DNA from: Proales similis
Taxonomy: Eukaryota; Rotifera; Eurotatoria; Ploima; Proalidae
Length of the DNA stretch: 64,000 bases
Direction of reading: 5' to 3'
NCBI GenBank assembly: GCA_019059635.1
Contig: JAGVRJ010000005.1
Coordinates: 620,001 to 684,000, forward strand
The position numbers and the translations under genes are program-made. The first letter of the stretch is position 1. Each line of letters begins with the position of its first letter. The notes beneath the pieces are model-generated. The model made no database searches and was not told the origin of the DNA. It worked only from the letters and a program-made list of their open reading frames with translations. Below, one piece after another: positions 28,017-36,945 of this stretch.

Positions 28017-28576
28017 TCAGGTGAAGCGTGGTCTTAAACTGAACCAGGTCGCTTTTTGACGAATTAAAAGTTTTAGGACAAAAAGTTTTTTATTTATTTC
28101 AATAGTCGAACCACAGACCCTTCTTTCGATCACTTGACCAAGTCGCTTAGGCACTGACTTAACCAGTTTCTTACACAGGTCTGGAGAAATGTTGCTCCAG
28201 GACCTTGAAACGGCTTCTGTCAGGCCCTGCTTGGTCCGACAGTTTTCCTCCGTCAAATCTCGCTTGAGTTTCGCCCAGAGGTTCTCTATCGGATTCAAGT
28301 CCGGAGATTGACTTGGCCAGGGGAGCCCATCGATTCGCTGGCTCTCGAACCAAGATTTGGTGCTTCTGAAAGTGTGCTTCGGGTCGTTATCCTGCTGGAA
28401 CACGAAGTCATTCCCGGTTAACCTCGTGGCGGAGTCTTTTAAGTGGGTCCTTAGGATCTCCTGGTACTTATGGGAGTCGATAATACCTTCAATGACCTGA
28501 ATTGAACCGACACTGGAGGCCGCGAAGCATCCCCACACCATTATACTGGTAGTGTGCTTCACAGTCTGCTTAAGAT
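28017..28576 (-). pseudogene. Tc1/mariner-like transposase, C-terminal half (split by LTR element)
   Basis: Encodes the second and third catalytic positions of a Tc1-type DDE transposase: FQQDNDPKHT and SQSPDLNPIENLW. The frame runs into the LTR element at 28,576; the missing middle and N-terminal parts resume at 36,166. The two pieces join in frame when the retroelement and one AGAT copy are left out, which shows the insertion order. Confidence 0.88.
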
Positions 28577-28934
28577 TGTTAGCCGAGAGAAAGTCGGTGT
28601 AGGATTTTACAATTTTATTTTCGATTTAACTAAGAATTGTAGAACTCGAGTCCTTCGCCGAAGCGGGACTCTATATAAAGTATTCCACCAAATAAATTTA
28701 AAACATTAACAATGATTTTAATTATTTAATTATTGAATCAAATGAATGGCAACAATGGTTGGGATGGGGAATCGGACTTAGGGAAAACATTAGCCGAGCA
28801 CTGTGGCGAGGCCCAATGTCGACTCTATCTGGAATACATTAAATGATCGAGGGTGGACAATAATAATGTGCGGATGGTGGGGTAATTACGAAATAACAAG
28901 AGCGACTTAGCTGTATAGGACTTGCTCCGTGACA
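28577..28934 (-). repeat. 3' LTR of the gypsy element (left copy)
   Basis: 358 bp, bounded by TGTTAG at the left and TGACA at the right on the plus strand. Reads as identical to 35,808-36,165. Preceded by AGAT. Confidence 0.95.
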
Positions 28935-28947
28935 AGTCCCCCCCTCC
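28935..28947 (-). promoter_or_regulatory. Polypurine tract of the gypsy element
   Basis: On the minus strand this reads GGAGGGGGGGACT directly before the 3' LTR, the expected plus-strand priming site. Confidence 0.8.
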
Positions 28948-28969
28948 GACTGAGGATCGTCCACGGTCC

Positions 28970-29401
28970 TTAGGGCTTTGGCCGACTGAGGTATCGGCAA
29001 CGGTCCACTCTTTCCCCGTCCTGGGTGACCTCTCCGTCCTCCGTGACCTTTATTTTGGCCACCGTCCGGTCCGTCCGTCCCTTTTGGACCTGGTCTATAA
29101 GGGAATATTTACCCTTGATTTCGGCTTCGCTGAGCCAGATTCCCGCCTCCGGGGGTGTAATTGTTTCTCCGTTGGCTCTGACTCCGCCGTCCGGTTCGAA
29201 GTAGAAGAATTCTTCGGTCATTATAATGTCCTGATCATAAGTGATATATTCCAGCATTGCCACCAGATAGAAGTTGACTGATCTTGGGTGAACGATGGCT
29301 AGGTAGTCCAGTCGTTCCCAAACCCGGTCTTGCTTTGCTCCCAGTCGATCCATCATCCGTTCCATTGTCTGCTGGTTGATTTTCTTTTCGTAGGTGTTCA
29401 T
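28970..29401 (-). CDS. Accessory ORF of the gypsy element (143 aa, unknown)
   Basis: Complete ORF between the envelope-like region and the 3' LTR. The protein begins MNTYEKKINQQTMERMMDRL, is mixed-charge, with no signal peptide, membrane segment or zinc motif, and has an aromatic/acidic middle (ITYDQDIIMTEEFFYFEPDG). Its start follows a run of about 24 A residues (minus strand, about 29,403-29,426) placed 64 nt after the polyprotein stop. How it is expressed is unclear: spliced mRNA, internal start or reinitiation are all possible. I know no family for it. An intact ORF beside intact pol suggests selection or simply youth of the copy. Confidence 0.7.
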   Translation of the reverse strand: MNTYEKKINQQTMERMMDRLGAKQDRVWERLDYLAIVHPRSVNFYLVAMLEYITYDQDIIMTEEFFYFEPDGGVRANGETITPPEAGIWLSEAEIKGKYSLIDQVQKGRTDRTVAKIKVTEDGEVTQDGERVDRCRYLSRPKP

Positions 29402-29465
29402 CTTTTTTTTTTTTTTTTTTTTTTTAAGATATCCTTAAATATTTGAATGGTTAAGTGAGTTTCTT

Positions 29466-32400
29466 TTAGTATTGGCCAAGCCTGTTTATGAGGTCCTGGG
29501 CCCGACTTCTCGGCTTTTCTATCAGCTCCAAGTCGTTCGTTCTCGGCTCCCGTCTGCATTTTGCGAGACGCTTGACTAAGATTGCTAAGAGCGCTATCAT
29601 AATCATTCCCGTTCCAAGAACGAGCGCCGTTCTGTATCCTATTATTTTCTCGACGACCTCTGCGAAGTCTGCTGTGCTTTGGACTTCGTCGTCTACTAGC
29701 TGTTCTCTTATCTTTTCTGACAGCGTCTCTTTCACTCCCTCGTTCACGTCTTCTATATGTTTGACGAGCGAGTGTTTAAAGTCGTTGAGTTCTTTAAAAT
29801 TATGCGACGCGTAATTAAATGACTCGCGTCCTTCCATCTTCGTCCTGATTATGTTGATTTTCCTTCCAACGTTCGAAAGCACTGTTCCATTCTTTACGTT
29901 AATGAAATTCATTTCGTCGCATCTCTTTGGTGTGCTTTTCTGAGTTATAAAATTCCCGTCTGTAAGCCAGCCTGTTTGGTTGGCCTTGCCGCTTTTAAAA
30001 GAGACAAATGCTTCTCTCGTGCAGAGTGAGTTGTTCAGGATCGTCACTTCTTTGGCGTCCGTGCATTCCGCTTTGAACATCTCTCCCGCTTCAGAGTAAA
30101 CTACCCAGTCTTTAAGGATGTTTTCTATGAATCCATTAAAGCTGCTAGAAGTAAGGCGCAGTACAGTTTCTGCTAATCTGCACATTTCTTCTGACAGCGC
30201 CTGCCATCTTCTTCTGTTTCTTTCTTCCAGGTGGAATGTCGCTGCATCTATGCTCATTATTGTTAGTGTGTTAACCGAGTCTTGGTTTACGTGCGTCTCC
30301 ATGTTTTTTGCTTCTGACTTGTTGACCACCACGACCCCTTCTGTCGAGTTCCATCCTTCGACGCCGCATGCGTTGATCTTCTGGGTTCTCCTGATGAGGT
30401 AGTCCTGGTCAATCCACAGGTCGTTGTATTGCTTCATCCTCCTTTCGGCTATTTTCGTGAAGCTGCAGTTCTTTATTATTTCCTTTTTCCAAACGAACAG
30501 CCCTTCTTCTGTCTTGCAGAAGAGTCTATCCGCTCTGCAGTATGCGTTTCTTCCGAAATGGATCGGTTTATCCTTGTATTTGCCTTTGACCGACGTCTTC
30601 CTAGTTCTGCAGTTGAGTTTTTTGAAGACTTTGGTTGTCCAGAGCTCGAAATCGACGCTTGGGTCTTCCTCGTAGCTACAGTACTCCTCGTCGCACTTCA
30701 TCGCCTCTTTTCCGCATCTTCCAGCTATTATCAGGGACCAGCAATCCCCCTCTGTCGGTTCCATGACCACTTCGTTCCTGTATTTTTCCCACTTGCCGAA
30801 AAACGGTTTGTAGGTGGTTATGGTGATCTCTGAAATCCTACAAAAGTAAGCGGTTCCGTCTACTTCATACATCCTTCTCTCCAGTAGTGCCACGTCCGTT
30901 TCGAAGCCTCCGTGATCGCCTCCAATCTTCATGCAGTACTCCTCCTGGATGTTTATCACTTTATCCGTTATTTTGCAAGCTTTAAACTCTCCTTCTAGTG
31001 TTAGTGCTTTCGCCAGTGGTGCGAGTAACCATATCAGCAGTATTGCTGTGAGTCCTGTGTGAGTGTTTCCTCCCTTCACTTCTCTCACGAGTTTGATTGG
31101 GGTTATTTCCTCATCTATCGAATTGAAATATTCGTTGATCATGTCCTGATGTGTGAAGTCTTCCTCGTCTACCCATGAGTTATCTTCTTCTGGGTAGCCT
31201 TTCCATTTTACGAAGTACTGTGTCTTTCCTTTTCTCGTCCTATGCTTGAGAATCTTTTCGACTTCGAACAGTTCATCATCTTCCTCCTCGCTGACATGTT
31301 CTATCGCCACGAGCCTAGACCTTGGGTAAGTTCCCTTTAGCTCTTTTCCTTTCCTATTTTTGAGTTTATACACTCCTTTAGGTGTGACTTGTGTTATGGT
31401 GTATGGTCCGGTGTTCTTCGGTCTCAGTTTATTTCCTATTTTGTTGGACATTTGAGGCACCTTTATCATGACCTCTGTTCCGGCCGCGAGTTCTTCTGAG
31501 ATTTTCGTGCATCTCGACTCCTGGTGTCTCTTTTGTCTCGCTTGCGCTTCTGCTATTTTCTCAATTGTTTTCGGAATTGTTTCTTCGTACCATTCTCTTA
31601 TTTCTTGGCTTCTTTGCCAGAGTTGTGCTTGGGTGTCTTGTGATTCCTCAATCGTCCAATCTTCGAGGCCGTTCGGTTTTCGCCCGAACATCAGTTCGTA
31701 CGGCGTGTGTTGTGTCGTTGATTGTTTATTTATCCTGAACGCAAGGCAAACGGCGTCTATCGAGTCTATCCAGTTCGTTCCTTCACCCTCAGTTTGTTTA
31801 GCGAGTGCTTTGATAAACGACTGGTTGAATCTTTCTGTCAATCCGTTGGTCCTCGGGTGGTACGCTGAAGTCTTCTTGTGAACCACGCCAAACTTCTTAT
31901 TCACTTCGTTAATAATTTGGTTAACGAATTCGGTGCCTTGATCCGAGAGGATTTCCTTCTGTGGCCCGAACAGAGATATATATTTGAACAGACAAGAGGC
32001 TATCTCTCCAGCTGCCTTGGATTTGATCGGCAGTACGAACGGGTATTTAGTGAGGTACTCTGTTATCACTAGGCACCCCTTATATCCGTCTCTTGTCGTT
32101 GGCAGTCCGAAAACGAGGTCCACTCCTATTCTGTCAAATATTCCTGTGACCTTTAGAGCTTGAGCGGCTTGTTCTTCTTTGGTGGCTTTAGAGAATCTCA
32201 GGCAAACGAGGCATCCATTGATTATTCTCTTGCATTGCATGTACATCCCTTTCCACCAGTATTTTTCTTTGACCTTTTCGTATGTTTTTTCGAGTCCGAA
32301 GTGTCCGATCGCGTGCGTTTCTTTTACTATCCGTGTTCTGTCCTCTATCTTCGGCACTTCCCGCTTATACCCTTGGTCATCTTTCTTGATGTGGTATACC

Positions 32401-35400
32401 TTTTCGTTTTCCCAGGCATATGATTTTGCCTTTTGATTTATTCTATTTATTTGTTTCCTTTGGAGTCCTGGTGAGTGGCGTCCTGTCCTTAGTAGGTTTA
32501 GCAGGTTATCGTCCTCCCAGATGTCTACTTGCTTATTTTCTTCTTGATCTTCAGGCATCTCTAGTTCTTCCGTGAACATCACTTCTACCATTGCTCTGCT
32601 CACGTAGTCTGCATTGTCGTGCTTTTTCCCTGCTCTGTGAATGATCTGCATGTCGTATTGTTGCAGGACCAAGCTCCATCTTGCTAGCCTTCCCGTGGGT
32701 TCCTTTAATCCCATGAGCCATTTGAGCGCTGAGTGATCGGTTACCACTGTGAATGTGGTTCCGTAAAGGTAAACTCTGAAGTGATTTATGCCAGCTATTA
32801 TAGCCAAGCATTCCTTTTCGGTTATTCCGTAGTTCTTCTCCCTGTCCTGGAGAAGTCTGGAGTAGTATCCTATGACGTACTCTCTTCCTTCGTCGTCCTT
32901 TTGCGACAAAATTGCTCCAAGTGCCAGTCCGCATGCATCCGTGTGCAGTATGAACGGCTTTTCGAAGTCTGGTTCCCTCAAGATAGGGTAAGAAGTCAGC
33001 GCTTCTTTGAGTTTTTTGAATGCATCTTCGCATTCGTCTGTCCATGTCCATTTGGTTTCCTTTTTAACCAAATTATAAAGTGGCGCTGAGAGTTCTGCGA
33101 AACCTTTTATGAATTTTCTGTAGTAGCCACACATTCCTAGGAATCTTTGAATGTCCTTGACCTTCCTTGGTCTCTTGCATTCGCTTATCGTTTCTATCTT
33201 TCTCTTATCCATCTTTATTTCTCCGTCACAAATTATGTAACCGAGTATGTTTATCTCGCTCACTATCCACTTGCATTTCTCCGGCGAGAGTTTCAAGTTC
33301 CACTCGCTTAGAACTTCTAGCACTTTCCTTATGTGTTCGAGGTGCTCTGCTAAGCTTTCCGAGTGAATGAATATGTCGTCTAGGTAGATCTCCACGAACT
33401 TTAAGTGTCCTAGCACCAATTTCATCACTCTATTGAAGATGCTTGGTGCGTTTTTGAGTCCGAAGGGCAACCTCGTGAATTCGTAGTGCCCGTCTGGTGT
33501 GGAGAATGCCGTGTATGGTATCGATTCCTCGTCTAGTTCTATTTGCCAGAAACCCGATTTTAGATCGAGTGAAGAAAAGAATCTCTTTTTTGCCATTCTG
33601 TCTCTTATGTCGTCCGGTCTCTGCTGTGGATATGGGTCTAACTGCATTTTTGCGTTTAGCTGTCTAAGGTCTTCTATGAACCTTGCGCTTCCATTTGGTT
33701 TGATTTGTATGAAGATCGGGAGATCGTAGGGGCTTTTCGAGTCTCTAACGATTCCCGCTTCCTTCATCTTTTGAATCTCTTCTCTGAGCTTTTTGTTTTC
33801 GAACATTGATCGTCTGTATTGTGGCGCCCTTATTGGCGTGTTGTCCGTCAACTTAATATTTTGTTTTGGAACTCTACTTGGTTCCTTCAGGTCATTTATG
33901 TCCTTTGCAAACACTTTCTTGTTTTGCTCCAGGATCTGTTTGAGTTTTTCTTGCGTGATTTCATCTAGGTGTTCGACTTCCCATTCTATCGACTTCACGC
34001 TTGTCGTCGACCAGCTTTCTTCTTGACTCTCCTCGTCTATTTCTGTTTCATCAAGTCTCCTTACCTCGTCTTCTTCGATGAGCCTAAGTGAGCCGTTGAG
34101 TTCGAATTCCACCTGTGGGAATTTTATCGTGTTATTTCCATGGTCCACGATCGCTTTTGTCGCTTCGTGCCAATCTTTTCCTAGCAGGGTCTCATTTGTT
34201 CTTAGTATCAGGCAGTCGAGCAATGTGCTCCTGCCAAATGCTGTTATCTTGACTTCTGCGCTGTGACTCGCTTCACATATGCTTCCATCGCCAAGTGAAC
34301 ATCTTGTTTTTATGTTTTTTAACTCGAGCTTTAATTCTTTTGCGAGGGCGTGTGGAATGACTGTTCTTCTAGCTCCTGGATCTATCATGCATGTCACCAC
34401 TTTTCCTCCTACCTCCGCTTGCACGTAGTTCACTTTCACCGTGTCCGGCGGGGTGTTATGTACCTCGTTTGTGGCCTTCAATTCCACTGATTCTTTCTTT
34501 TTCTTTCCCTGAGGGGCTTGTCTGTCTTTGTTCGGTGCAGTTGCCTTCGGTCTTAGATCCGGATGAGCTATCCAGCAAGAAGCCTCTTTATGGCCTGTTT
34601 TCTTGCAGTGCATGCAAACCGGTGTGTCCTCTTTCCTTTGTGGTTGAGGTTTCTTCTCCTGGGCTGGCATTGTGTTTTGCTTATAGTTCATTTTTGCGTT
34701 TGCTTCGGCTTCTCTTGCTTTGAGAAACGCTTCTTGTAGATTCTTTGGTCTTTGAAGCTGTACGTAACCTCTTATGTAAGGTTTCAGCTTTCTTATGAAT
34801 GACGTGGTTATCCATTCCTCGGATAACTGGCCTTTTAGGTTGATGGCAATTCTCCTAAATTCTTGGATGAAGTCCTGGAGTGAGCCCTTGTGACTCAGCT
34901 CTTCTAGTTTCGCGTGTATGTTTATTGTTTCGAACGTTTGGCCGAATTCGTCTATCATGAATTTTGAGAATTCGCTCCAGGTTATCTCTGCCTCGTCTCT
35001 CCCGTCAAAGTGCCACACGAAGGCTTTCCTCGCGTCGCCCGAGAGTTTAAGCGCAGCATTAATTGTCCATTCTCCTCTGTTGTACTCGTAGTACCTCATC
35101 GCTTTCTCTAACTTTTTTAGCCATTGTTCAACGTCTTCATCTTTGCCTCCGCTGAATCTGAAGTCTTCGGTATCTAGTGATATAATTTGTTTTAGTGGTG
35201 CCCTTTTCCTTACGGGTCTTTCGTCCACCGCTATTATTTCTTCTATCGTCTCCTCATTTCTTATCTCCTGCGAGGGTCCTCTTGCTATGTTTAGGATCGC
35301 TTCCAGCTTCCTCTCTATACCAATGAGTTTATCTTCCACGTCCTTCTTAGTTTGACTGTGGGCTTGTTCCATTTTCGTATTTGTTTTTTCAAACTTCTCA

Positions 35401-35762
35401 TTTATGTTTTCTTGGAGTTGTTCCATCCTACGGTGGTTTTCCTCCGTTTTTTCTTCGAGTTTATTCTGGAGCTGCTCTAGTCTCTCCTTATAAACTTGCA
35501 TTCTTGTTTCGACTTCTATTTGGAAGTCTTCTTTCGCGAGCTGGGATGTACGGCTGGCTTCCAGTATCTTCTCCTCCAGTCTCTCGACCATCTCTTGGAG
35601 TTCCTCTCCTCTTAGTTTGTCCAAGCTCTCCGTGAGCTTGGTTTGTTGGGCAACCATATCTTGCTTTAGCCCTTTAATAATTCCATCCAATTTCTCCATC
35701 CCTTTGATGGCTGTATTTGCCAATTCAGCGGCTTCCATGCTCCTTGTCTGGGCCGAACTCAT
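29466..35762 (-). CDS. Gag-Pol-chromodomain-Env-like polyprotein (2,098 aa)
   Basis: One uninterrupted ORF. Approximate residue positions: coiled-coil N terminus 1-160; Gag domain 200-335; zinc knuckle CMHCKKTGHKEASC near 384; aspartic protease loop DPGA near 459 (usually DSGA/DTGA); reverse transcriptase with YLDD near 792; RNase H 920-1,025; integrase zinc finger 1,150-1,195 and core with SDQGTEF near 1,271; chromodomain (FVKWKGYPEEDNSWV) 1,497-1,545. About 550 further residues look like an envelope glycoprotein: a hydrophobic leader near 1,571-1,585, many cysteines, several N-glycosylation sequons, a basic RNRRR near the middle and a C-terminal membrane span near 2,040-2,065 with a short basic tail. 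Fusion of an Env-like part in frame behind a chromodomain is unusual. Its actual fusion or entry function is not shown. Confidence 0.93.
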   Translation of the reverse strand: MSSAQTRSMEAAELANTAIKGMEKLDGIIKGLKQDMVAQQTKLTESLDKLRGEELQEMVERLEEKILEASRTSQLAKEDFQIEVETRMQVYKERLEQLQNKLEEKTEENHRRMEQLQENINEKFEKTNTKMEQAHSQTKKDVEDKLIGIERKLEAILNIARGPSQEIRNEETIEEIIAVDERPVRKRAPLKQIISLDTEDFRFSGGKDEDVEQWLKKLEKAMRYYEYNRGEWTINAALKLSGDARKAFVWHFDGRDEAEITWSEFSKFMIDEFGQTFETINIHAKLEELSHKGSLQDFIQEFRRIAINLKGQLSEEWITTSFIRKLKPYIRGYVQLQRPKNLQEAFLKAREAEANAKMNYKQNTMPAQEKKPQPQRKEDTPVCMHCKKTGHKEASCWIAHPDLRPKATAPNKDRQAPQGKKKKESVELKATNEVHNTPPDTVKVNYVQAEVGGKVVTCMIDPGARRTVIPHALAKELKLELKNIKTRCSLGDGSICEASHSAEVKITAFGRSTLLDCLILRTNETLLGKDWHEATKAIVDHGNNTIKFPQVEFELNGSLRLIEEDEVRRLDETEIDEESQEESWSTTSVKSIEWEVEHLDEITQEKLKQILEQNKKVFAKDINDLKEPSRVPKQNIKLTDNTPIRAPQYRRSMFENKKLREEIQKMKEAGIVRDSKSPYDLPIFIQIKPNGSARFIEDLRQLNAKMQLDPYPQQRPDDIRDRMAKKRFFSSLDLKSGFWQIELDEESIPYTAFSTPDGHYEFTRLPFGLKNAPSIFNRVMKLVLGHLKFVEIYLDDIFIHSESLAEHLEHIRKVLEVLSEWNLKLSPEKCKWIVSEINILGYIICDGEIKMDKRKIETISECKRPRKVKDIQRFLGMCGYYRKFIKGFAELSAPLYNLVKKETKWTWTDECEDAFKKLKEALTSYPILREPDFEKPFILHTDACGLALGAILSQKDDEGREYVIGYYSRLLQDREKNYGITEKECLAIIAGINHFRVYLYGTTFTVVTDHSALKWLMGLKEPTGRLARWSLVLQQYDMQIIHRAGKKHDNADYVSRAMVEVMFTEELEMPEDQEENKQVDIWEDDNLLNLLRTGRHSPGLQRKQINRINQKAKSYAWENEKVYHIKKDDQGYKREVPKIEDRTRIVKETHAIGHFGLEKTYEKVKEKYWWKGMYMQCKRIINGCLVCLRFSKATKEEQAAQALKVTGIFDRIGVDLVFGLPTTRDGYKGCLVITEYLTKYPFVLPIKSKAAGEIASCLFKYISLFGPQKEILSDQGTEFVNQIINEVNKKFGVVHKKTSAYHPRTNGLTERFNQSFIKALAKQTEGEGTNWIDSIDAVCLAFRINKQSTTQHTPYELMFGRKPNGLEDWTIEESQDTQAQLWQRSQEIREWYEETIPKTIEKIAEAQARQKRHQESRCTKISEELAAGTEVMIKVPQMSNKIGNKLRPKNTGPYTITQVTPKGVYKLKNRKGKELKGTYPRSRLVAIEHVSEEEDDELFEVEKILKHRTRKGKTQYFVKWKGYPEEDNSWVDEEDFTHQDMINEYFNSIDEEITPIKLVREVKGGNTHTGLTAILLIWLLAPLAKALTLEGEFKACKITDKVINIQEEYCMKIGGDHGGFETDVALLERRMYEVDGTAYFCRISEITITTYKPFFGKWEKYRNEVVMEPTEGDCWSLIIAGRCGKEAMKCDEEYCSYEEDPSVDFELWTTKVFKKLNCRTRKTSVKGKYKDKPIHFGRNAYCRADRLFCKTEEGLFVWKKEIIKNCSFTKIAERRMKQYNDLWIDQDYLIRRTQKINACGVEGWNSTEGVVVVNKSEAKNMETHVNQDSVNTLTIMSIDAATFHLEERNRRRWQALSEEMCRLAETVLRLTSSSFNGFIENILKDWVVYSEAGEMFKAECTDAKEVTILNNSLCTREAFVSFKSGKANQTGWLTDGNFITQKSTPKRCDEMNFINVKNGTVLSNVGRKINIIRTKMEGRESFNYASHNFKELNDFKHSLVKHIEDVNEGVKETLSEKIREQLVDDEVQSTADFAEVVEKIIGYRTALVLGTGMIMIALLAILVKRLAKCRREPRTNDLELIEKPRSRAQDLINRLGQY

Positions 35763-35793
35763 TTTTTCTTATTTCTTATGTCGGTTTATCTTA

Positions 35794-35805
35794 GCGCTGC
35801 TACCA
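35794..35805 (-). promoter_or_regulatory. Primer-binding site matching initiator tRNA-Met
   Basis: On the minus strand, two bases after the 5' LTR, the sequence is TGGTAGCAGCGC. The first nine bases are complementary to the usual 3' end of animal initiator tRNA-Met (CUGCUACCA); the match stops after that. Confidence 0.65.
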
Positions 35806-35807
35806 CT

Positions 35808-36165
35808 TGTTAGCCGAGAGAAAGTCGGTGTAGGATTTTACAATTTTATTTTCGATTTAACTAAGAATTGTAGAACTCGAGTCCTTCGCCGAAGCGGGAC
35901 TCTATATAAAGTATTCCACCAAATAAATTTAAAACATTAACAATGATTTTAATTATTTAATTATTGAATCAAATGAATGGCAACAATGGTTGGGATGGGG
36001 AATCGGACTTAGGGAAAACATTAGCCGAGCACTGTGGCGAGGCCCAATGTCGACTCTATCTGGAATACATTAAATGATCGAGGGTGGACAATAATAATGT
36101 GCGGATGGTGGGGTAATTACGAAATAACAAGAGCGACTTAGCTGTATAGGACTTGCTCCGTGACA
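35808..36165 (-). repeat. 5' LTR of the gypsy element (right copy)
   Basis: 358 bp, reads as identical to 28,577-28,934. Followed by AGAT, the target duplication. Confidence 0.95.
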
Positions 36166-36945
36166 AGATGCTGGCTGGTGAGAGCCGTTCCAGGTCGCTT
36201 CCAGCAGTACGACTTCCCATCACTACCGCCGATGTTAATTTTGGTCTCGCCCGACCAGAGGACCCCGTTCCAGAACGACATCGGACGATCCCGGTGGTTC
36301 CTGGCTAGTGTTGGGAAAATGACTCAAGTGCGTCAGAGTCAAATGACGCGACTACCAAAAGTTGTTTGACGCACTTTTTTTTGACCAGCCGCGTCAACTG
36401 ACGCATGGAATTTTGACGCGCGTCGAGTCGAAAATGACGAATTTTTCCAACTTTTTAGAGAGACACCAAAACCACTAGATAGACTGAAATATTTTTTTTT
36501 AATTTTTCAAAAGGCTTAAATTTTCTGATATAAAGGCCCGGAATTCTGGCGAAGTCCAAGCGAGCTTTCTTGTGCTTCTCGCTTAGCAACGGCTTAGCCT
36601 TCCTCACCAGGGACTTGAACCCACTCTCTCGACATCTCCTACGGACCAGGTCGAGTGTAACATCGACCAACTTGCTCTCCTTGAGGTGCTCTGCAACTTT
36701 TTGGGCGCTGGAAATCTTCGTTTTCGCCATTTCTTTGACGATAATCCGATCCAGCGCCTGGTTGGTCTTCCTTGGACGGCCTGTTCTGCGCTGGTCGGAG
36801 TTGGTGCTGGTTTCCTTGTAGCGCTGCACCGTGTAGGAGACCGAGGACTTGCTCACTCCAACGATCTCAGCGATTTTCCGCACACTTTTCCCTTCGCTGT
36901 GATGCTTAAAGATCAGATCAGATCAGATCATATGTATAATAAAGC
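36166..36945 (-). pseudogene. Tc1/mariner-like transposase, N-terminal part (broken)
   Basis: 36,540-36,900 encodes the helix-turn-helix/AT-hook-like N terminus (SVRKIAEIVGVSKSSVSYTV, RRTGRPRK) and reads to LDFAR. The next piece, NHRDRPMSFWNGVLWSGETK, is at 36,170-36,305 and leads into the C-terminal half at 28,576. Between them lies a 237-bp insertion. The usual first catalytic aspartate (WSDE) is glycine here (WSGE), and an upstream stop truncates the N terminus. A GATCA tandem repeat lies at about 36,908-36,930. The gene was dead or dying before or after the gypsy insertion; the order cannot be told. Confidence 0.85.
36306..36542. mobile_element. Small insertion in the Tc1 transposase, possible MITE
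   Basis: About 237 bp with no coding sequence splits the transposase between LDFAR and NHRDR. It starts TAGTGTTGGGAAAATGACTC and carries at least six TGACGC/GCGTCA motifs in both orientations. Flanking 8-bp sequences TTCCTGGC and ATTCTGGC are similar, as expected for an old hAT-type target duplication, but clear terminal inverted repeats were not found at the outer ends. Confidence 0.45.

Follow-up and report, generated by a model that had tools for sequence, protein, structure and literature searches.

Envelope (Env) capture is what can make a retrotransposon into a retrovirus. In the sections of the sources available to us, from which all citations here are drawn, chromoviruses are defined by a chromodomain in pol (PMC12440569; PMC2774666), and Env captures are named for the errantiviruses (from baculoviruses) and for Anakin (from chuviruses) (PMC12440569). 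An older survey, judging by the data of its time, stated that cnidarians, molluscs and protostomes lack chromoviruses (PMC2774666). In bdelloid rotifers, one lineage, the TelKA elements, carries a paramyxovirus F gene in an open reading frame (ORF) of its own, ORF3, and no chromodomain was found in any bdelloid lineage studied (PMC5408684). We analysed 64,000 nucleotides (contig positions 620001-684000; hereafter the window) of the Proales similis assembly, which has 32,716,893 bases in 15 contigs. Proales similis is a monogonont rotifer and is listed as marine (PMC11954553). The minus strand of the window carries, at 28577-36165, a complete chromodomain Ty3/Gypsy element. It is probably a young, full-length element in which a class III glycoprotein has become fixed as the last domain of a Gag-Pol-Env polyprotein.

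One frame from Gag to the envelope region

The preliminary description of this DNA had placed a chromodomain and an Env-like region on one uninterrupted ORF with Gag and Pol, between identical long terminal repeats (LTRs) and a clean target duplication, with a hydrophobic leader near residue 1,571. The sequence bore out each of these points. The ORF is open over 2,098 codons in the order Gag-protease (PR)-reverse transcriptase (RT)-RNase H-integrase (IN)-GPY-chromodomain-Env, the LTRs are identical over 358 bp with ATCT on both sides, and the core of the leader lies at residues 1573-1584. The Pfam search was run on pieces of the ORF. Its features are as follows (window positions; (-), minus strand).

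29466..35762 (-): single Gag-Pol-chromodomain-Env ORF, 2,098 codons uninterrupted (ORF reading)
34644..35054 (-): Gag capsid, Ty3_capsid PF19259, residues 237-373 (Pfam, 4.4e-12)
34281..34424 (-): aspartyl protease PF13650 (Pfam, 6.5e-6)
33231..33701 (-): reverse transcriptase RVT_1 PF00078, residues 688-844 (Pfam, 7.1e-38)
32655..33044 (-): RNase H PF17919/PF17917 (Pfam, 2.5e-36)
31854..32345 (-): integrase, H2C2 zinc finger and rve core (H2C2 1.7e-15, rve 1.6e-8)
31401..31409 (-): GPY of the GPY/F module, residues 1452-1454 (by eye)
31122..31268 (-): HP1-like chromodomain PF00385, residues 1499-1547 (Pfam Chromo, 1.4e-16)
29469..31097 (-): Env piece used for the analyses, residues 1556-2098
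31011..31046 (-): hydrophobic core of a putative internal signal sequence, residues 1573-1584 (hydropathy)
30261..30923 (-): predicted class III fusion-glycoprotein region, residues 1614-1834 (predicted structure)
29574..29630 (-): C-terminal transmembrane segment (TM), residues 2045-2063, followed by a basic tail (hydropathy)

The pol part has the architecture of a chromovirus, with a Ty3-type PR-RT-RNaseH-IN order, a chromodomain at the integrase C-terminus and a GPY/F module ahead of it. The integrase matches those of Ty3 and PFV, the RNase H-IN stretch matches Ty3 Gag-Pol (1.5e-25) and the chromodomain matches solved HP1 chromodomains (1.8e-13).

The last 543 residues contain 17 cysteines and 6 N-glycosylation sequons between the hydrophobic leader and the C-terminal TM. 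The signal sequence, ectodomain cysteines and C-terminal TM typical of class III glycoproteins are thus present, as judged from hydropathy and counts. A search of the PDB by sequence with the window's Env gave no match. AlphaFold models of Env from two families matched class III glycoproteins (rhabdo/chu-type G, herpes gB), which made up all 50 of the 50 PDB matches listed for these low-confidence models; no entry named for baculovirus F was among the 50 fold matches listed per search, an absence that excludes nothing. The rhabdovirus G fusion domain, PF00974, scored above the Pfam cut-off in three of six database relatives scanned and weakly (E 0.1) in one of the four families of this genome described below. 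On these models and matches, the C-terminal region resembles a viral fusion glycoprotein of class III type and not a host membrane protein. For Env, the ratio of nonsynonymous to synonymous divergence (dN/dS) was 0.26 and 0.245 against two decayed sister copies; near-identical copies have too few differing sites.

The remaining features of the locus are listed below.

35808..36165 (-): 5' LTR, 358 bp, starting TGTCACGG and ending CTAACA (exact repeat of 28577-28934)
28577..28934 (-): 3' LTR, 358 bp (exact repeat of 35808-36165)
36166..36169 (-): target duplication ATCT, 5' side (sequence)
28573..28576 (-): target duplication ATCT, 3' side (sequence)
35790..35805 (-): putative primer-binding site TGGTAGCAGCGCTAAG, 2 bases past the LTR (sequence)
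28936..28947 (-): G-rich polypurine tract ahead of the 3' LTR, ends approximate (sequence)
29403..29425 (-): run of 23 A separating the main ORF from a small ORF (sequence)
28970..29401 (-): small ORF of 143 codons, kept in sister copies (ORF reading)
28017..28562 (-): remnant of a DDE_3 (Tc1/mariner-type) transposase adjoining the element (PF13358, 3.8e-10)

With flanking bases included, the exact direct repeat is 361 bp. The A run is 24-33 A long in six other copies (loci L059-L066 compared). The small ORF is also open in the copy on contig C2, where 9 codons differ synonymously and 7 nonsynonymously, and its product had no Pfam family below E 0.09 and no PHROGs match. The preliminary description had overlooked this ORF, the DDE_3 remnant and the Env-less sister copies described below. 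The neighbourhood contains an axonemal-type dynein piece and fibronectin type II, C2H2, Lines and DHHC domains, surroundings that fit a ciliated animal.

Copies and families in the Proales genome

The Env piece had 20 matches in the genome. Five are full-length at ~100% identity, the window's included, and one more ends at a contig edge; the others are either fragments of copies that are broken or have diverged (63-96%) or members of diverged families (22-30%). Like the window's, the Env-bearing copy on C15 has an uninterrupted frame, here of 2,100 codons. In the copies on C3, C4 and C9 the Env-containing frame is open over 965, 928 and 1,355 codons, respectively, and the break, either a mutation or an assembly error, lies farther upstream. 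Target duplications differ among the Env-bearing copies: ATCT on C5 (the window), GGTA on C15, AGTA on C3 and TATA on C4. The C9 copy sits within a row of LTRs, and its target duplication was not resolved.

In three further families (C1:1836023, C7:654511 and C3:1943955), a hydrophobic leader, its core included, and an Env lie in frame behind the chromodomain; over the aligned length, this Env shares 18-23% identity with that of the window. Env is therefore in the chromodomain's frame in all four local families, and three of them have single frames of 2,049-2,107 codons, with RT and Env in one open frame of 2,107 codons in the C1 element and 2,049 in the C7 element. The LTR pairs of the C1 family (identical over 352 bp) and the C7 family (99.5% over 201 bp) indicate that these insertions are recent too. 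Three families in one 32.7-Mb rotifer genome thus have an element with an open RT-to-Env frame and LTR pairs that are 99.5-100% identical. Because copies at four sites have target duplications of their own and three diverged families repeat the order of chromodomain and Env, we conclude that the arrangement is not due to chance. The genome-wide search proposed in the preliminary description thus yielded both further copies and diverged families. Its claim that no stop or frameshift separates Env from Pol also stood, as the C15 copy and two other families are open from RT to Env and the three broken copies are broken upstream of the chromodomain-Env stretch.

The C7 family carries TGGTAGCAG, which resembles the window element's putative primer-binding site. 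In the C1 family (L022/L092), the last ~38 Env codons lie within the 3' LTR (repeat L022:637-988, end of the Env piece at 874), and beside the C1 element there is a tandem repeat of ~57 residues per unit (L022:1-696, minus strand), with one frame open over 232 codons. At C2:1688859-1690322 (L015), synonymous divergence (dS) from the window is low in Env (0.11) and much higher in that copy's integrase part (0.53), a contrast suggestive of recombination between subfamilies. Element copies, some with serial LTRs, are found at contig ends (C1 to 6170, C9 to ~16000, C5 from 2447770 and C12 from 1583319), where they may have stopped the assembly.

The genome contains 25 chromodomain matches, of which we assigned 16 to elements and 9 to host genes, the latter only because no pol or Env match was seen near them. 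Env lies downstream of 12 of the 16 element chromodomains and two belong to an Env-less derivative; C9:25 (at a contig edge) and C7:1459655 are left over. Another Ty3 family, distinct from these (C1:2465839 and C9:724299; frame of 1,555 codons), has no chromodomain and no Env in the stretch read.

The Env-less derivative is represented by C15:511365-517039 (L067) and C4:1684532-1690201 (L068), whose LTRs are 99.7-100% identical to the window's. Their target duplications are AATT and GATG and their junction is the same: the end of the chromodomain is fused to the middle of the small ORF, the second half of which is placed behind the chromodomain. The junction falls at a common ATCAGGACAT stretch of 10 identical bases, and the BLAST alignments overlap by 13. 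An origin from reverse-transcribed spliced RNA was ruled out, since the junction is at this direct repeat and not at GT-AG; the shared stretch indicates a microhomology deletion. Two insertions with different target duplications and one junction imply that the deleted form itself moved, and Env is therefore dispensable for transposition inside the genome, at least with other copies present. Since Env-bearing and Env-less copies with nearly identical LTRs coexist in one genome, a switch between infectious-type and intragenomic forms can be studied directly.

Relatives in sequence databases

A search with the pol piece gave 779 proteins at E ≤ 1e-30 among 7,984 scored. We analysed the 120 matches listed, detecting Env with a profile built from the four local families. 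Env was found in 28 of the 120, and 64 reached the end of the chromodomain. Among these 64, Env was present in 22 of 22 relatives with a tail of >200 residues beyond the chromodomain and in 5 of 7 with a tail of 50-200 residues. By alignment, the Env-bearing P0061 and the long-tailed, Env-negative P0029, P0070, P0074, P0083, P0091 and P0112 did not reach the chromodomain end. P0107, from the rotifer Brachionus calyciflorus, has both chromodomain and Env. The preliminary description had held that these two traits are rarely seen together; this is true of the literature searched, where we found no case, but not of the databases, where many relatives have both.

We computed a quick, unrooted integrase-chromodomain tree of 97 rows, with SH-aLRT (approximate likelihood-ratio test) support only and no named reference chromoviruses. 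A supported 78-row group (99) holds all 32 Env rows. Env and short rows are intermixed within it and imply at least 11 changes, which is compatible both with one gain followed by losses and with several gains. Env distances are correlated with those of the integrase region (26 rows, r 0.446, 0 of 5000 permutations). The median Env identity is 0.23. Sixteen cysteine columns are nearly invariant: of the 21-26 rows that have a residue at a given column, no more than one lacks the cysteine.

Env-only searches of a 5.8-billion-protein set, with a single sequence and with a four-sequence profile, gave no match, likely because candidates were limited to 0.55-1.75 times the query length, which excludes fused polyproteins; the same limit (~1,850 aa for the pol query) hides longer Gag-Pol-Env proteins. 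A search of IMG/VR gave no relative.

Making the envelope, and comparison with known systems

We infer the following route. Ribosomes would translate the full-length RNA as one ORF. The linker after the chromodomain, which is often basic, and the hydrophobic core would act as an internal signal sequence with its N-side cytosolic and its C-side lumenal, inserting Env into the endoplasmic reticulum (ER). Signal peptidase, with a likely site close to ORF residue 1587, and the element's own protease would split Env from the integrase-chromodomain part, the C-terminal TM would anchor Env, and particles could then fuse with and pass between cells, where the HP1-like chromodomain would steer integration to heterochromatin. 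Such an element would join integration that seeks out heterochromatin to a possible route of horizontal spread.

The spacing from chromodomain to hydrophobic core is 15-59 residues and often K/R-rich (P0061, with a misplaced core, was left aside). In 19 of 32 Env rows no Met lies between the two, and most Envs therefore lack their own start codon in that interval. By the positive-inside rule, basic residues ahead of a core favour an N-in, C-out orientation, which would place Env in the ER lumen and Gag-Pol-chromodomain in the cytosol. Together, the missing Met and the basic linker lead us to prefer a single polyprotein in which an internal signal sequence is cleaved. An RGR(P/K/G/A) or KGRP motif, presumably of AT-hook type, occurs in the 60 residues past the chromodomain in 11 of the 28 Env-bearing relatives (P0007, P0027, P0030, P0032, P0033, P0042, P0043, P0062, P0071, P0080 and P0085); it would stay with the integrase once Env is cut off.

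Several observations weigh against a fixed polyprotein domain of class III type. The last 543 residues of the window's ORF have no Pfam match at E ≤ 1, and PF00974 was not found at E ≤ 0.01 in the other three of the six relatives scanned. Structure prediction, suggested in the preliminary description, gave the class III matches, at low confidence outside the core: the predicted local distance difference test (pLDDT) scores are 51.3 and 54.3 and the predicted template modelling (pTM) scores 0.34 and 0.33, both models were built on the same four sequences, and whole-length gB alignments to the Env model have a root-mean-square deviation of >20 Å. Three full-length sister copies have a frame broken upstream of the chromodomain-Env stretch, and in the C3:1943955 family RT and Env lie in two frames (1,327 and 767), shifted between integrase and chromodomain. 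Env-less copies with nearly identical LTRs have transposed. Among the 64 database relatives, two of the seven with tails of 50-200 residues and all 35 with tails of <50 residues lack Env, and several of the 35 are apparently whole Env-less elements ending soon after the chromodomain. Lastly, the protein database shows only relatives with a fused Env, so that fusion there is partly a matter of ascertainment; the local families are unaffected by this bias.

The main alternative keeps the same element and class III Env but has Env translated from a spliced subgenomic RNA, in which an upstream AUG is joined to the signal sequence, as in insect errantiviruses; the shared frame would then be incidental. 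This is possible, although we consider it unlikely. The 19 of 32 Env starts without an AUG after the chromodomain would suit it, and Env starts of insect endogenous retroviruses (ERVs) derive from a leader exon, an AU dinucleotide or gag (PMC12992720). Splicing would not need a shared frame, yet four diverged local families keep it. In a crude scan, made without a host splice model, three of the four had no YAG with >8 pyrimidines in the preceding 16 nt within ~240 nt before the Env start; the fourth had one, with 12 of 16 pyrimidines, ~200 nt upstream, and no acceptor candidate was common to all four.

We give little credence to the idea that the Env-like domain is kept for an intracellular job, such as membrane targeting of particles or superinfection exclusion, and not for infection. 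The transposing Env-less forms and the relatives without Env are in keeping with it, as Env is unneeded for retrotransposition at least beside other copies, but the features that mark an entry glycoprotein, namely a leader, the 16 cysteines, a predicted class III region and a TM, are retained together. A hydrophobic ORF extension, host membrane protein or assembly chimera would account for the lack of Pfam and PDB sequence matches to the window's Env but is scarcely credible given copies that occupy different sites and are flanked by target duplications of their own, four families, 28 relatives in other public sequence sets and the fold matches.

Returning to the polyprotein, we hold the chances to be even that it marks an old, diverse lineage of animal retroelements, in rotifers and in public sequence sets, that unites a chromodomain-guided integrase and a class III glycoprotein in one Gag-Pol-Env polyprotein, with an internal signal in place of a spliced env mRNA and, left on the integrase side, a short linker that is often basic and in some cases resembles an AT-hook.

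Chromoviruses (Metaviridae) share with the Proales element the PR-RT-RH-IN order, the GPY motif and the HP1-like chromodomain at the integrase end; the Proales group adds a predicted class III Env in the same ORF, whereas the available sections of the literature name captures for other groups only. Anakin, a mosquito element placed in BEL/Pao, has a class III Env and, to our knowledge, no chromodomain. Like the Proales element it is an LTR element with an Env, derived from chuvirus glycoproteins (PMC12440569); unlike it, the Proales element has a pol that matches Ty3, not BEL/Pao, and carries a chromodomain. Errantiviruses and insect ERVs (gypsy, ZAM) are also Ty3/Gypsy elements with Env, but theirs is a baculovirus F-type Env in a third ORF (PMC12992720), whereas that of the Proales element is class III-like, in the Pol frame and behind a chromodomain. 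TelKA elements are likewise LTR elements of rotifers whose Env came from negative-strand RNA viruses, but this is a paramyxovirus F in a separate ORF3 with no chromodomain (PMC5408684), as opposed to a chromodomain and a single frame. In the accessible parts of the open-access literature we found no report of a chromodomain element with a class III Env, although repeat-library entries may hold one, and the animal cases described there differ in the type of Env, in the retroelement family or in having a separate env ORF. In the present case the capture is common to a diverse group, covaries with pol and lies in a single frame. Env capture by an LTR element is thus already known; the combination of a chromodomain with a predicted class III Env appears to be new, and the single-frame layout is unusual.

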